From: Moorella glycerini
Lineage (GTDB): Bacteria; Bacillota; DSM-521; Neomoorellales; Neomoorellaceae
DNA length: 64,000 nucleotides
Direction: 5' to 3'
NCBI RefSeq assembly: GCF_009735625.1
Contig: NZ_CP046244.1
Span: 806,001 to 870,000, forward strand
Part shown: positions 17,454 to 63,338 of the stretch, one piece after another
Layout of the letters: each line of letters begins with the position of its first letter
Position numbering within the stretch: the stretch's first letter is position 1
Made by a program: the position numbers and the translations under genes
The notes under the pieces: generated by a model
Databases searched by the model: none
What the model was told of the DNA's origin: nothing
Seen by the model: only the letters and a program-made list of their open reading frames with translations

Positions 17454-20400
17454 TTATTTTTTAAGCTCCTGGATAAGCGGGCAATCGTCAGCGGGATCCG
17501 AGATCTCGAGGAAGGCCTCCGTGTGCTCTCCTTTCGCCACGACACCGGCCAGCACCTCGAACAGCTCAGCGAGGGCCTTCATGGAGCCCGGGGTAACGCC
17601 GGTGAGCTGGATACGGAGGACGCCCCCTTCCGGAAGCTCAAGGTCCACCAGGTCCAGGCTGTCAATGGTGGACCTGGCGCCCCGGTTGTAGAGGCCGCCC
17701 AGCCGCCGCAGCAGCGGCAGGAGCTTTGCGGCGCCTTCTTTGCCCTCAAGGGTAAAGGCCCGGCGGCCGGCTGTGACCCATCCCCGCTCGGCCGCCTTGG
17801 CCGGGGTGATCAGCACATCGCCGGGCCGGGGGGTATACAGGGCTGCACCGGGCCCCTGGATGAGTTCAGGCTTTTCTTGCTGGTCCGGCGTGCCACGGAA
17901 AACCAGCAGGCGGCCGTTCCTGACCAGGGTCACCACAGCCTCCTGGAAGTCCCGGGCCGGGATTTCCCCGTATTTTTCTGCCAGGTTGCCCGCGACCTCC
18001 TGCACCGTTGCCGCCCCGCCCCCGCTAACCGTGTAGAGCACGCCGTCACGAACCCTGGCCGGATCAGGCCGGCGGGCTCCCATCCAGCCGCGCTGGTTGG
18101 CTCCCTGGACGGTGACGAGCCCGTAGCCCGCACCGGCCAGGTTGACCCCCATGGGAATCTCGTTTTCCCGGTGGTAGAATTCGGCCGGCTTTAGACTATC
18201 TTCTGCGCCCATGCGATAAACGCACCATACGCCCTTCTGCACCCCGGTGCGAATAATTTGTTCAAAGACACCCGTACTCTCCAGCACCGGCCAGCTGCGC
18301 CGGCAGGAGAAGTTCTCCCGCAGCTTCTCCAGGGTTATAGTGTCGCCCTGCTCAAAGAAGAGCCTGCTCAGGTTCAAAAGGTCCGCCTGGGTTGTATTGC
18401 TGCCGGTGAGAAGCTCACCGTCATTGATCAAGGTGGCGCGGATTTGCTCGATAAAGGGCATCCCGCCCTCGCCCCCGGCTGTCTTGATCTCCTTGCGGAC
18501 GATATGCCCTGCCGCCCCGGGGTAGTAGAGGCTGGTGTAGATGCTGGCGACGGCGGTAACCAGCGCCTGCTCCCGCTCACGGTAGCGTTTCTGAAAATCC
18601 TCCTCCGCCAGCCGCCGGGGGTTGAGGCCATAGCTCTGCGGCCTGTCGCTTAAGATGCGCATTGCTTTGACCTGGCGCGCAATAGCCTCGATACGCTGCC
18701 GGACTTCTTGAACCTGGGTGCTTTGACTTGCGAAAAGCCCTTCCTGGCGGTTTATCCCTTGCACAGCGACAGTTTCTGGAACCAGGATAAAGATGAGGTT
18801 CTGCTGCTGCCGGGGTCTATTAACACCCCTGGTGGTCACCATAGCCTCAACATCGATGGTTGCGGCAGCCAGCGCTACGACCCCCAGCACGGGCCTCCCC
18901 TTACCATCAGGCAAATGTTCCGGCAGCGAGACGTCGTGTTCAATATGGAACAGCCCCGAACCGCCAGTGATGATCTTCCGCGCCGTGGCCTCAAGGAGCT
19001 CCTGCACCTGGCCTGCCGTGATAGTCTTGCGGATCCTGGCCAGGATGTTGTTAATCGTCGGCTCGCGGCCGGCAAAATATTTTCCCTGTTCGTAACGGAG
19101 GTAAAAGGCACTTTCATTTATTTCCTCTAACGCCATGCGTACCTGGGGCGGCGTGAGGCCGGGAAAGGATACAGAAAACAGCGCCTCCGATTCGGTAAGG
19201 CCGTAGATTCTGGAATCCAGGCCCTCTTCGCGGCCCACCAGGCTGTGCAGGAAGACCGTCTTCCAGGTGTACTCGTAAAGGGGATAACCCTCCGGGTGCG
19301 GGTTGCGCTGGTCAGCAAGTTCCGCGTTGCTACGGCCGCCCTCGAGGGTGCCCGTGTCGACGCTACCCACGTCGGCATTAAGGACGAACAGCAGGTCCGA
19401 ACTGCCTGTACGGCCGAGGATCTCGTTGACCACGCGGTCCGAGCGCAGGTCCAGGTGACAGGCATGGATCATGGGTACGTCCTGCTGTTGCAGCCACAGG
19501 CTGCGGACAGCCAGAGCCAGCACCCGCAGGACGCCGCGCGTGCCCTGGAAGTTCTCGGCACTGGCCAGCTTGTTATTCAGGAAGTCTATCAGGGTGGGGT
19601 GAAAGGGATAGCTGGCGATCATCCGGCCCTGAAAATCCTCGCTAGTAGCCTCATCCGGGAGCATGCTGGCGTTGCGGCGGTACATCTGCATATATTCCCC
19701 GGCGGTCGCCCTGGCAGCGTCGCGGTTTATCGATAGAAAAAGCCGCTTGGCGAGTACGGACGCGATCTCGGCGGCGTGCACCGGCGTAATCTGGACGGCG
19801 TCACGAGCCACCACGCTGGCCACGCCCTTGACGGCTTTTTCGCCAATTCCCAGGGCATCGTCTTCGCTAACCTCTTCGCCGCGCACCTGGCTGATGAGCT
19901 TCGCCAAAAGCTCCGTTTGGCGGGCAAAGGCATCGGTTGCGCTGGCCAGCGTGAGGATGACCGCGATCCCGGGATGGTTGCGGGCATAACCGTGAAGCCC
20001 CATTAGAAAGGCAGCGAGCTGGTTCGCGCCATCGGGCCGCGCCGCTTCCAGCCGTGCCGCGTACTGGGCCAGCTCATCCAGCATGATGATGGCCTTTCGC
20101 CCTCCCAGCACCCTTGCAAAATACGTTTTACCGGGTGCGGCATAGGAGCCGGCCTCCTCTTCCACCTGGCGGTAGAGCTCTTCGCCGCCCATTTGATAGG
20201 CAATCTCCCCCCAGAGGGTGTAGGGTACCAGGGCATTACCTTTCGGTTTATGTACCGGGATCTCGTCACCTGCCACGCCGACGACAGCGACTGAACCGGG
20301 CTCGGGGAGAAGCTGCGGGTCAAGAAAGTCCTGGATCAGGCCCCGCAGCTCTGTACCCCGGTAAGCAATGTGGGTGCAGGCGATTAGCGTATGGGTCTTA

Positions 20401-22447: not shown

Positions 22448-24337
22448 ATCGAGTAGGAGGGGACGGCTAGCCCCCGTCCTCTCACACCACCGGACATGCG
22501 GGTCCGCATCCGGCGGTTCACCAAGCTTGACGAAGATAAGAATAGCGCTCGGTTAAGCTCATCAGGCCCTGGGATTGCCAGTAGGCATTGCCCAGGGCTC
22601 TATTCATTGGCCCATGGGCCATCCGCCACAGCCCTTTGCGGGCATTGGCGAATTCATGCACTACCCATTCCGGCAATCCCAATGCGCGTAGTTCGCGGTA
22701 CCTGGTCCGTACTCGCTTCCACTGCTTCCAGAGACACATGCGCAGCCTCCGCCGCGTCCAGCTTTCTAAGTTCTTAAAGATGCTGGGCGTGTCGGCCAGG
22801 GCGAAGTACCCTATCCAGCCGCCCAGGTAGGCGTTCAGGCGCTCTATGCGCTCGGCCATCTTTAAGGGTTTATTCCGGGCGGTTATCTCCCGGATTTTCG
22901 TTTTCACCCGGTCGATGGTCTGCGGCGCCAGGCGGATAAGGATTACTCCTGCCTTGTGTTTGTACATGCTGAACCCCAGAAATTTCAGCTTCCACGGCCG
23001 GTCTACCGCGCTCTTCTGCTCGTTGATCTTGAGCTTCAACCGCTCCTGCAGGAAGTTGCGGATACTGGCCATGACCCTTTCTCCTGCCCGTTTGCTTTTG
23101 ACGTAGATGTTGCAGTCATCGGCGTAACGGACGAACTTGTGGCCCCTCTTTTCCAGTTCTTTGTCCAGGTCGTCCAGGAGTATGTTGGCCAATAACGGGC
23201 TTAAGGGTCCGCCCTGGGGCGTTCCTTCTGCCGTCTCCATGACCACTCCGTTTACCATGACGCCTGCCTGGAGATAGCGGCGGATAAGGGTAAGTACCCT
23301 CTTATCTGCCACTTTCCGGGCCACCCGGGCCATGAGGATGTCGTGGTTTACCCGGTCGAAGTATTTCTCGATGTCCAGGTCCACGGCCCATTCGTATCCT
23401 TCTTCTACGTATTGCCGCGCCTTCTTTACCGCATCATGGGCTTTCCTTCCGGGACGGAACCCGTAGCTGGCCTCTGAGAACTGCGGTTCGAAGATGGGCG
23501 TCAATACTTGCAGGAGGGCCTGCTGGATTAGGCGGTCCATTACGGTGGGTATCCCTAACATCCGTTTGCCTCCCCCGGGTTTCGGGATTTCGACCCGGCG
23601 CACGGGCTTCGGTCTGTAGGTTCCCGCGAGCAGTTCTTCCCGGATGCGCGGCCACTCGGCGCGTATTTGGTCCCGCAACCGTTCGGTCGGGATGCCGTCC
23701 ACACCGGGCGCGCCTCCGTTCCGCTCTACCCGTTTCAGCGCGGCCAGCATGTTCTCCCTGGCCACCACCTGCTCCATCAGGCCGCTACCTTGGCCTCCGC
23801 GAGGTGACGTCCCGCTTTGTGCCGGAGAAGAACTCGGCCCTCCCGCGCTCCCCCGTGGCTTCACCACTTCTTCCCGCGGGCAGGCCCCTTGCGGGGTTTT
23901 CTGCTGTCTCTGTCCTTCTCGCGAACGCACCGGTTTCACCTCTGACTTGATGTTCGGGCCTTCCCCTGGAGTTCATGACCCCCAGGGTACTATGCCCTCT
24001 GCTGACTCCTGCCGGTTCAGCCGTACCTTCCGATACGGTTTACCAGCTCTCCCTGGCTTATCCGGCAGGCCTCCCCGGGTAAGAGCGTTAACCTTCGCCC
24101 CGTGCCCGCCCCATATACTCTACCGTCCCTTGGCAGCCTGGGATTTCGCTGTGTTCCGCCAGCTTATCCGAACGGTCTAGCCTCGTATGGGGTTCTTGTT
24201 CATCGGGCCGTGGCTTTGCCTCCGGCTTCCTTCGGATCCCACCTCGCGATGGACACCCTTGCCTTTGGCTAGCAGACTGGTGCTGCCTCGCCTGCAGTGG
24301 ACTTTCACCACTAAGTTAACGCCCATGCCGGGCGCAC
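22448..24337 (-). mobile_element. Group II intron, class C-like, complete
   Basis: On the minus strand the intron opens with GTGCGCCCGGCATGGGCG (first base 24337), the classic bacterial group II 5' end. It carries an LtrA-type ORF in domain IV. A domain V hairpin with GCCGGATGCGG and CCGCATGTCCGG lies at about 22485-22520, a GC-rich domain VI follows, and the element ends CTACTCGAT at 22448. Total length is 1890 bp. The bases just before the 5' end are a strong terminator stem and T-run, the favoured insertion site of class C introns. No copy of the uninterrupted site is in the window. It does not interrupt a recognisable gene. Confidence 0.85.
22518..23939 (-). CDS. ltrA: Group II intron reverse transcriptase/maturase
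   Basis: 473 residues. After a basic, low-complexity N-terminus, RT blocks run from about residue 65: GGAPGVDGIPTERL, IPKPGGGKRMLGIPTVMDRLIQ, ASYGFRPGRKAHDAV, AVDLDIEKYFDRVNHD, GTPQGGPLSPLLANI and the catalytic FVRYADDCNIYV near 290. The maturase (X) domain follows with LKFLGFSMY and the Arg/Trp-rich C-terminal helices. There is no HNH endonuclease domain, as expected for class C proteins. All catalytic residues are present, so it may be active. The stop codon overlaps the start of domain V. Confidence 0.95.
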   Translation of the reverse strand: MKPVRSREGQRQQKTPQGACPREEVVKPRGSAGGPSSSPAQSGTSPRGGQGSGLMEQVVARENMLAALKRVERNGGAPGVDGIPTERLRDQIRAEWPRIREELLAGTYRPKPVRRVEIPKPGGGKRMLGIPTVMDRLIQQALLQVLTPIFEPQFSEASYGFRPGRKAHDAVKKARQYVEEGYEWAVDLDIEKYFDRVNHDILMARVARKVADKRVLTLIRRYLQAGVMVNGVVMETAEGTPQGGPLSPLLANILLDDLDKELEKRGHKFVRYADDCNIYVKSKRAGERVMASIRNFLQERLKLKINEQKSAVDRPWKLKFLGFSMYKHKAGVILIRLAPQTIDRVKTKIREITARNKPLKMAERIERLNAYLGGWIGYFALADTPSIFKNLESWTRRRLRMCLWKQWKRVRTRYRELRALGLPEWVVHEFANARKGLWRMAHGPMNRALGNAYWQSQGLMSLTERYSYLRQAW

Positions 24338-31575: not shown

Positions 31576-31624
31576 TATCATGCTCACTCTCCCTTTATTT
31601 TTTAACCAGGGAGAGATAAGGGGT

Positions 31625-31830
31625 TACCCGGCGCCCTTTGTCCCCGGGATTACTCCCGGGATTTGTAGCGCCTTTGACGGTCGTAACCGGACCGGGGGGC
31701 ACCCGCCGATGCCTCGATTAACCCCCGCCTCGTCAACCCTCCGGCACCCATACCTGGATGGCCCTCCTGGCTCACCCCGGCATAAACGGCGGGCCGGCTG
31801 GTCCCGGCGCTTGCCTTCGTCCTGATTCCT
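31625..31830 (-). ncRNA. glmS ribozyme-riboswitch
   Basis: On the minus strand, about 240 nt before the glmS start, the conserved core is visible: AAGCGCC at the cleavage site (between 31811 and 31810), then GGGTTGACGAGGCGGGG, TTAATCGAGGCA and TCGGCGGGTGCC. These match the core of known glmS ribozymes. The peripheral P3/P4 stems extend to about 31625, including a CCCGGGAGTAATCCCGGG hairpin. Glucosamine-6-phosphate acts as the cofactor for self-cleavage, which destabilises the glmS mRNA. The outer limits are approximate. Confidence 0.92.
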
Positions 31831-41390: not shown

Positions 41391-41602
41391 GGGCTGGCAT
41401 TTGTTTGCAGCGAGCGACTTGGTCCGAGCGGCGAAGCGGCCGCAGGCTGTGCCGAGGAGCGAGGGCGGGGCCGAGGACAGGAGGTCCGAGGCCGGCCTCT
41501 GAGGCAAGGATGCCGAATAGGCCGGGAACCCCGCCCGAGCCCGAGGCAGAGCCGTAGGCCGCTCCGCGAGGACCACGGAGCGAGCGCAAACATAGCCAGC
41601 CC
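41391..41602. repeat. 42-bp palindromic repeat split by a 170-bp MITE-like insertion
   Basis: The outer parts, 41391-41416 and 41587-41602, join to a 42-nt sequence that is identical to the reverse complement of 63229-63270. Between them lie 170 bp ending with a second copy of AGCGAGCG (41409-41416 and 41579-41586), an 8-bp target duplication. The inserted DNA has no gene and its ends are imperfectly complementary (TGGTCC...AGCGG and the reverse complement TGGTCCTCGCGGAGCGG), continuing through GC-rich arms of about 70 bp, so it can fold into one long hairpin. This is the structure of a small non-autonomous element. It lies in the leuA-leuC gap, in the leader of leuC. Confidence 0.8.
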
Positions 41603-63198: not shown

Positions 63199-63228
63199 GC
63201 TAGTTTCGCCTCCGAAAATACCTCTCAT

Positions 63229-63270
63229 GGGCTGGCTATGTTTGCGCTCGCTGCAAACAAATGCCAGCCC
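63229..63270. repeat. 42-bp imperfect palindrome, intact copy
   Basis: GGGCTGGC and GCCAGCCC form the outer arms, then GTTTGC and GCAAAC the inner stem around GCTCGCT. The sequence is the exact reverse complement of the two flanks of the insertion at 41417-41586. It lies in the 140-bp gap between the UPF0261 start and the stop of the TIM-barrel gene. Confidence 0.75.
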
Positions 63271-63338
63271 AGCTTCTCATAGGCGCTAATTGCGTAGATA
63301 GCGGCTGTTTACCACCGTGGTAGTTCCTCCTGGTTATT

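Follow-up and report, generated by a model that had tools for sequence, protein, structure and literature searches.

The two palindromic sequences at 41391-41602 and 63229-63270 of the window, i.e., the whole 64,000-nucleotide stretch of the Moorella glycerini genome analyzed here, are in all likelihood copies of one Moorella family of non-autonomous, palindromic, MITE-like elements, the full form of which carries a core related to the TwoAYGGAY RNA (RF01731). The evidence comprises copy number, insertion polymorphism, a covarying core, long-to-short deletions that leave remnants, inversion in place and an orientation in the sense of the downstream gene. In the full form, outer arms that differ between lineages enclose a conserved, rod-shaped core. 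This core would be removed by slippage at the short direct repeats of its foot (GCGAGC or CTCGC), which would yield the short form, and such core-less short forms would still be mobilizable. At the first site, the two flanks of the 170-bp segment 41417-41586 join to GGGCTGGCATTTGTTTGCAGCGAGCGCAAACATAGCCAGCCC, which equals the reverse complement of 63229-63270 at 42 of 42 nucleotides. This exact match had been reported in the preliminary description of the window, as had the 8-mer AGCGAGCG that is indeed present on both sides of the segment. An identity of 42 nucleotides between two sites within 64 kb cannot be chance. The segment itself has a G+C content of 74% and folds into a rod of -109.9 kcal/mol. 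As the flanks shared among copies reveal, both intervals cover only the centre of a larger unit. The features are listed in Table 1; G000 denotes the M. glycerini genome, G002 M. stamsii, G003 M. mulderi, G004 M. sulfitireducens and G007 Moorella sp. UBA4076.

Table 1. Features of the two sites in the window, and loci that carry nested hairpin modules.
Feature	Position	Strand
Central palindrome of the long copy, a full-length element between leuA and leuC	41391..41602	+
Left outer arm GGGCTGGCATTTGTTTGC, pairs with 41587-41602	41391..41408	+
Left AGCGAGCG, intrinsic to the core; GCGAGC can pair with the right copy, with two tandem G.A pairs	41409..41416	+
170-bp "insert", a GC-rich rod, conserved core of the element	41417..41586	+
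TwoAYGGAY-like structured core (model R1, E 8.5e-28)	41435..41564 (G000:C1:847435-847564)	+
Right AGCGAGCG, partner of 41409-41416	41579..41586	+
Right outer arm CAAACATAGCCAGCCC	41587..41602	+
Complete ~111-bp unit of the short copy as inserted	63214..63324	-
Palindrome of the short copy, which lacks the core and has one AGCGAGCG in its loop	63229..63270	-
Loci with nested modules	L012, L101, L104, L107, L120-L138, L252	
RNase P module loci	G000:C1:1980465-1980902 (L298); L290-L302	

The genome search suggested in the preliminary description yielded about 18 long copies of the 212-bp unit in M. glycerini, several fragments and about eight short copies. Most copies share additional flanks of around 60 nt on the left and around 25 nt on the right, and comparison with clean sites gives unit sizes of ~111-117 bp for the short form and ~290 bp for the long form. 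In many copies, the left part contains CCGCTAACGCGG or GGCGGCGAGCCGCC as a small hairpin, with sequence of the type AGAAGGATGAAAATAAC coming next, while the right part contains GTTATTTTC and often runs into a ribosome-binding site. Candidate ends of the elements are ACAAGACCCTCATGCCGC...GTTATTTTCAGGGTAGA and TCATGGCGGC...GTTATTTTC. The outer left flank MPLTRHHQKDENNGLAFVWSE was also considered as a short peptide, and this was rejected as its changes track the hairpin and not codons. Overall, the family is multicopy, non-coding and polymorphic for insertion at orthologous sites, as is typical of MITE-like elements. The longest downstream reading frame runs in the direction of the element in 56 of the 67 non-orthologous copies (p 2e-8), and 45 of the 67 sit between two frames that both run the same way as the element. 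Judged from this sequence context, the copies appear mostly placed for transcription as intercistronic or leader RNA.

The core is conserved well beyond Moorella. A cross-genus alignment of 23 sequences yields a consensus rod in which 31 out of 39 pairs change on both sides, with a covariation score of 0.459 compared to 0.189 for shuffled and at most 0.124 for slid controls, a comparison somewhat favored by the derivation of the structure from the same alignment. The resulting covariance model, R1, was applied to 398 sampled genomes of the phylum and detects the core in 71 of them, representing 52 genera. TwoAYGGAY has been an RNA family since 2010. At Rfam gathering scores (43 bits for RF01731), no match is obtained in the Moorella loci, and the Moorella core is therefore called a relative of TwoAYGGAY and not a member. 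Permissive RF01731 scores rise from 22.6 bits for a Moorella locus (L003) to 30.1 for L307 and 39.2 for L315, the latter two being less divergent relatives. R1 and RF01731 overlap above the cut-off at G024:C15:5041-5200 and G172:C3:4380948-4381113, and they coincide at one site in G138 with 42.7 bits, just below it. On these sequence scores, the Moorella core is a divergent relative of the TwoAYGGAY RNA, bridged by intermediate sequences. The core layouts look alike, with two hairpins that carry GGA loops and a common stem that would include tandem G.A pairs. The loops are of the AUGGAU type in G265, G288 and G138, whereas in Moorella they read ACAGGAUG and AAGGAU, with one or both degenerate. 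Facing GA steps can be read from the aligned sequences as GCGAGC/GCGAGC, CCGAGG/CCGAGG and GGCGAAGCC/GGCTGAGCC. Moorella copies further differ from the described RNA in forming the core of dispersed palindromic mobile elements. Several genomes contain RF01731 itself in many copies, with 32 matches in G065 and 40 in G271, and folded RF01731 loci show long lineage-specific terminal palindromes around the TwoAYGGAY tip. Other identities for the element were considered and dismissed: the HEARO/IscB-associated RNA (RF02033) gave no match even at E 10, nor did cmscan report a group II intron or a known riboswitch. Elsewhere in the window, a group II intron lies at 22448-24253 on the minus strand (RF02001, RF01998 and RF00029 domains) and a glmS ribozyme-riboswitch at 31618-31822 on the minus strand.

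TwoAYGGAY has been listed as a probable RNA of unknown function (PMC2864571); binding or sequestering of CsrA was later proposed, and its tandem G.A pairs were noted (PMC4333381). The papers found on the motif make no mention of mobility, and the link with mobile elements is new as far as the literature found shows. One possibility is that the elements are functional cis-acting RNAs in intercistronic leaders, for instance CsrA-binding or affecting mRNA stability, which are selected rather than mainly selfish. The sense bias (56/67), the covariation with conserved GGA loops and the proposed role of TwoAYGGAY in CsrA sequestration (PMC4333381) all fit this explanation. Yet, the orthologous sites that precede the same genes in congeners often lack the element or hold a deleted form, the copies stand before unrelated genes and the element between leuA and leuC is inverted in two species, and we regard a primarily regulatory nature as unlikely.

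The MITE-like reading is supported by the history of individual sites. In the preliminary description, 63229-63270 was taken for a preserved empty target. This locus is itself a recent insertion of ~111 bp, found in M. glycerini alone: the site is clean and without insert in six congeners (G001, G002, G003, G004, G009 and G010), and the short copy is therefore new and not an old target that was preserved. In G005, unrelated intergenic sequence occupies the position. Short copies at L033 and L036 likewise have clean empty orthologous sites. At L006, a long copy of ~290 bp lies between two GGAGGAG sequences, where G001, G002, G003 and G010 have a single such ribosome-binding sequence. The flanks of insertion-polymorphic sites are 90-97% identical. 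These clean insertions, together with the location of 45 of the 67 copies between co-directional genes and the nested modules at the same internal sites, make it very improbable that the family merely represents ordinary bidirectional terminators or REP-like palindromes that do not transpose, even though strong intergenic stem-loops are what such sequences would offer.

At leuA-leuC, the preliminary description had proposed the insertion of the 170-bp segment into a 42-bp palindrome, and had put forward a comparison of this gap in close relatives, with an ancestral long form as the outcome that would speak against it. The long form is present in G000, G002, G003 and G010. M. sulfitireducens carries a deleted form (...GTTTGCGCTCGCTCCGTGGTCCTCGCTGCAAAC...) that still holds the core foot, with CCGTGGTCCTCGC as the core piece kept, and whose ends lie at a CTCGC direct repeat. 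The element is absent in G008 and G009. The long form is thus the older one, and the reading as an insertion with a footprint fails by its own criterion. What stands of the claim that an element family, its target and the footprint of transposition occur together in one window is a mobile, multicopy, palindromic family of which two states are present; neither a target nor a footprint is. Similarly, a deletion in G001 (L253) keeps the core piece AAGCTTCTGC at a site that is long in G000. Across 55 long copies, orthologues included, arm and core distances correlate (Mantel r 0.43, with none of 2000 permutations as high). Because of this correlation and the deletions with core remnants, core and arms appear to be inherited as one element, and short forms would mainly arise by core loss. 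Three further pairs of orthologous copies, each with one long and one short member (L168/L010, L173/L087 and L177/L084), are compatible with a change in either direction.

The 8-bp repeat, previously interpreted as a footprint of transposition, is intrinsic to the core. AGCGAGCG or close forms of it flank the core in G016 (another genus of the same family) and in G022 and G265/G288 (other families). The outer arms of these elements bear no resemblance to those of Moorella: TTTAGCTC/GAGCTAAA, GGCCTGCTTTGG and TTTTGCACG/CGTGCAAA. Since a target duplication would track the target and not the element, AGCGAGCG is not one. GCGAGC can pair with itself (G-C, C-G, G.A, A.G, G-C, C-G), and the repeat would more plausibly form the two halves of a single stem. 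The original proposal takes the 170-bp core for a transposable hairpin in its own right, inserted in the loop of a pre-existing 42-bp palindromic repeat with duplication of 8 bp. The exact junctions at AGCGAGC are in line with it, as is the numerous and uniform short subfamily: its most frequent sequence recurs unchanged at many loci of several congeners, which would be expected of a real pre-insertion subfamily. Different arms bound the core in other genera, moreover, and a single ancient acquisition by the Moorella arms is possible. Against this, AGCGAGCG is conserved at both core feet despite unrelated arms, core and arm subfamilies correlate, deletion intermediates retain core remnants and no arm-free core copy is seen in Moorella, so that we consider a separately mobile core quite improbable.

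Copies of the MITE-like family can also be inverted in place. At leuA-leuC, G000 and G003 carry the 212-bp unit, arms included, in one orientation and G002, G010 and G004 carry it in the other, between flanks that are colinear. In another family, a single-copy TwoAYGGAY element of 216 bp is inverted between G138 (L314) and G104 (L315), whose flanks are 90-92% identical. Inversion between the palindromic arms explains both cases. Taken over all whole Moorella units, target duplications do not reach significance (p 0.13 and 0.18 by permutation); single cases resemble one, such as L006, with GGAGGAG on both sides and empty sites in congeners. By tblastn of the loci around the copies, no transposase with ends matching the Moorella elements was found. 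A phage collection contained no match to the elements, and our literature search on Moorella repeats returned nothing relevant. A search of plasmids gave one weak match, at 19559-19691 of NZ_CP061968.1 (L079), a 27-kb unannotated record labelled as a Klebsiella pneumoniae plasmid. L079 is a complete TwoAYGGAY palindrome of the Moorella-like type, and the record is probably mislabelled or contaminating sequence.

TwoAYGGAY elements in other families do point to a transposase. Those of G266 and G391 (L374-L413) have the ends CAGACTGTAGACAAA...TTTGTCAACAAACTG, and a locus-specific segment directly adjoins 32 of their 34 copies on both sides, as a direct repeat (flanking duplications were accepted from a score of 12, which 0.2% of mismatched pairs reach). 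The duplicated segment is a whole hairpin of 16-30 bp, with a folding energy of -7 kcal/mol or lower in 28 of the 32 cases compared to 0.9% of random segments. The duplicated hairpins are often followed by T runs and are probably intrinsic terminators. The same hairpin duplication occurs in 7 of 12 loci of G271, which belongs to a different family (L414-L425; L344 and L415 are one locus). In G266, G391 and G271, the duplications were read from filled sites alone. The same 19-nt end adjoins an IS1182-family transposase (Pfam DUF772 and DDE domains) that is encoded on an E. faecium plasmid. This element measures 1516 bp, has near-identical ends, CAGACTGTAGACAAA and CAGATTGTAGACAAA, and is flanked on either side by AATAGAGCTTTTCAGCTCTATT, i.e., a 22-bp hairpin duplication. 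IS1272, of the IS1182 family, uses stem-loops as targets, by replacement (PMC5678879). Because of the shared ends of the CAGNNTGTWGACAAA type and the duplicated hairpins, the TwoAYGGAY elements of G266, G391 and G271 are best read as IS1182-type MITEs, and they are very probably moved by an IS1182-type transposase. In contrast, the Moorella elements have neither such ends, nor a duplication of the target hairpin, and they carry no transposase.

Further hairpins are nested inside the Moorella elements. Some cores hold one or two extra hairpins, most with the ends CCCAGCACTCA...TGAGTGCTGGG, which replace the same small core hairpins, GGGAACCCC and GCCGTAGGC, and are present or absent at orthologous copies. 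Two kinds of modules occupy fixed internal sites of the core: C (~94 bp) and D (~67 bp). Related modules occur in G018 and in the TwoAYGGAY elements of G391. In eight Moorella genomes, M. glycerini among them, the RNase P RNA also carries a module of 70-200 nt, with CCCRGCACTCAA...TTGAGTGCYGGG-like ends, at what appears to be helix P12; in G004, G008 and G010, this region has a short stem instead. Some of the modules with CCCAGCACTCAAC/GTTGAGTGCTGGG match the core-site consensus of integron attC sites, but many copies break it.

ERIC, Correia and bcr elements are bacterial MITEs with nested or internally deleted forms. The Moorella family resembles them in being small, non-coding, palindromic and intergenic, with long and short forms. 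Unlike them, it has a core that is conserved with compensatory changes across dozens of families of the phylum, and further hairpin modules are nested inside its elements. That TwoAYGGAY occurs in palindromic elements which are dispersed and polymorphic, and which have IS1182 ends in two families, shifts the likely function of this motif. In those families, the length of the duplication (16-30 bp) tracks the target hairpin and is not fixed, which makes it a sharp readout of structure recognition of the IS1182 type. Essential RNAs may be entered by related elements as well, as the modules in RNase P RNA suggest. A more far-reaching possibility, which we put forward tentatively and with little confidence, is that TwoAYGGAY would be the structural core of phylum-wide, hairpin-seeking mobile elements and not primarily a cellular regulatory RNA. 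The folded core, as ssDNA or RNA, would then contribute to mobility, and the elements, together with nested modules with CCCRGCACTCAA ends, would colonize hairpins in terminators, in one another and in RNase P RNA.

Two further observations concern individual Moorella copies. On one side, L013 and L015 (G000:C1:1236603 and 71693) are flanked by the same sequence over at least 710 bp, which is a recent larger duplication. In several congeners, an element is located at the very start of a hemW-like frame (L009, L102, L109, L116, L118 and L131), and the start of this frame may lie inside the element.
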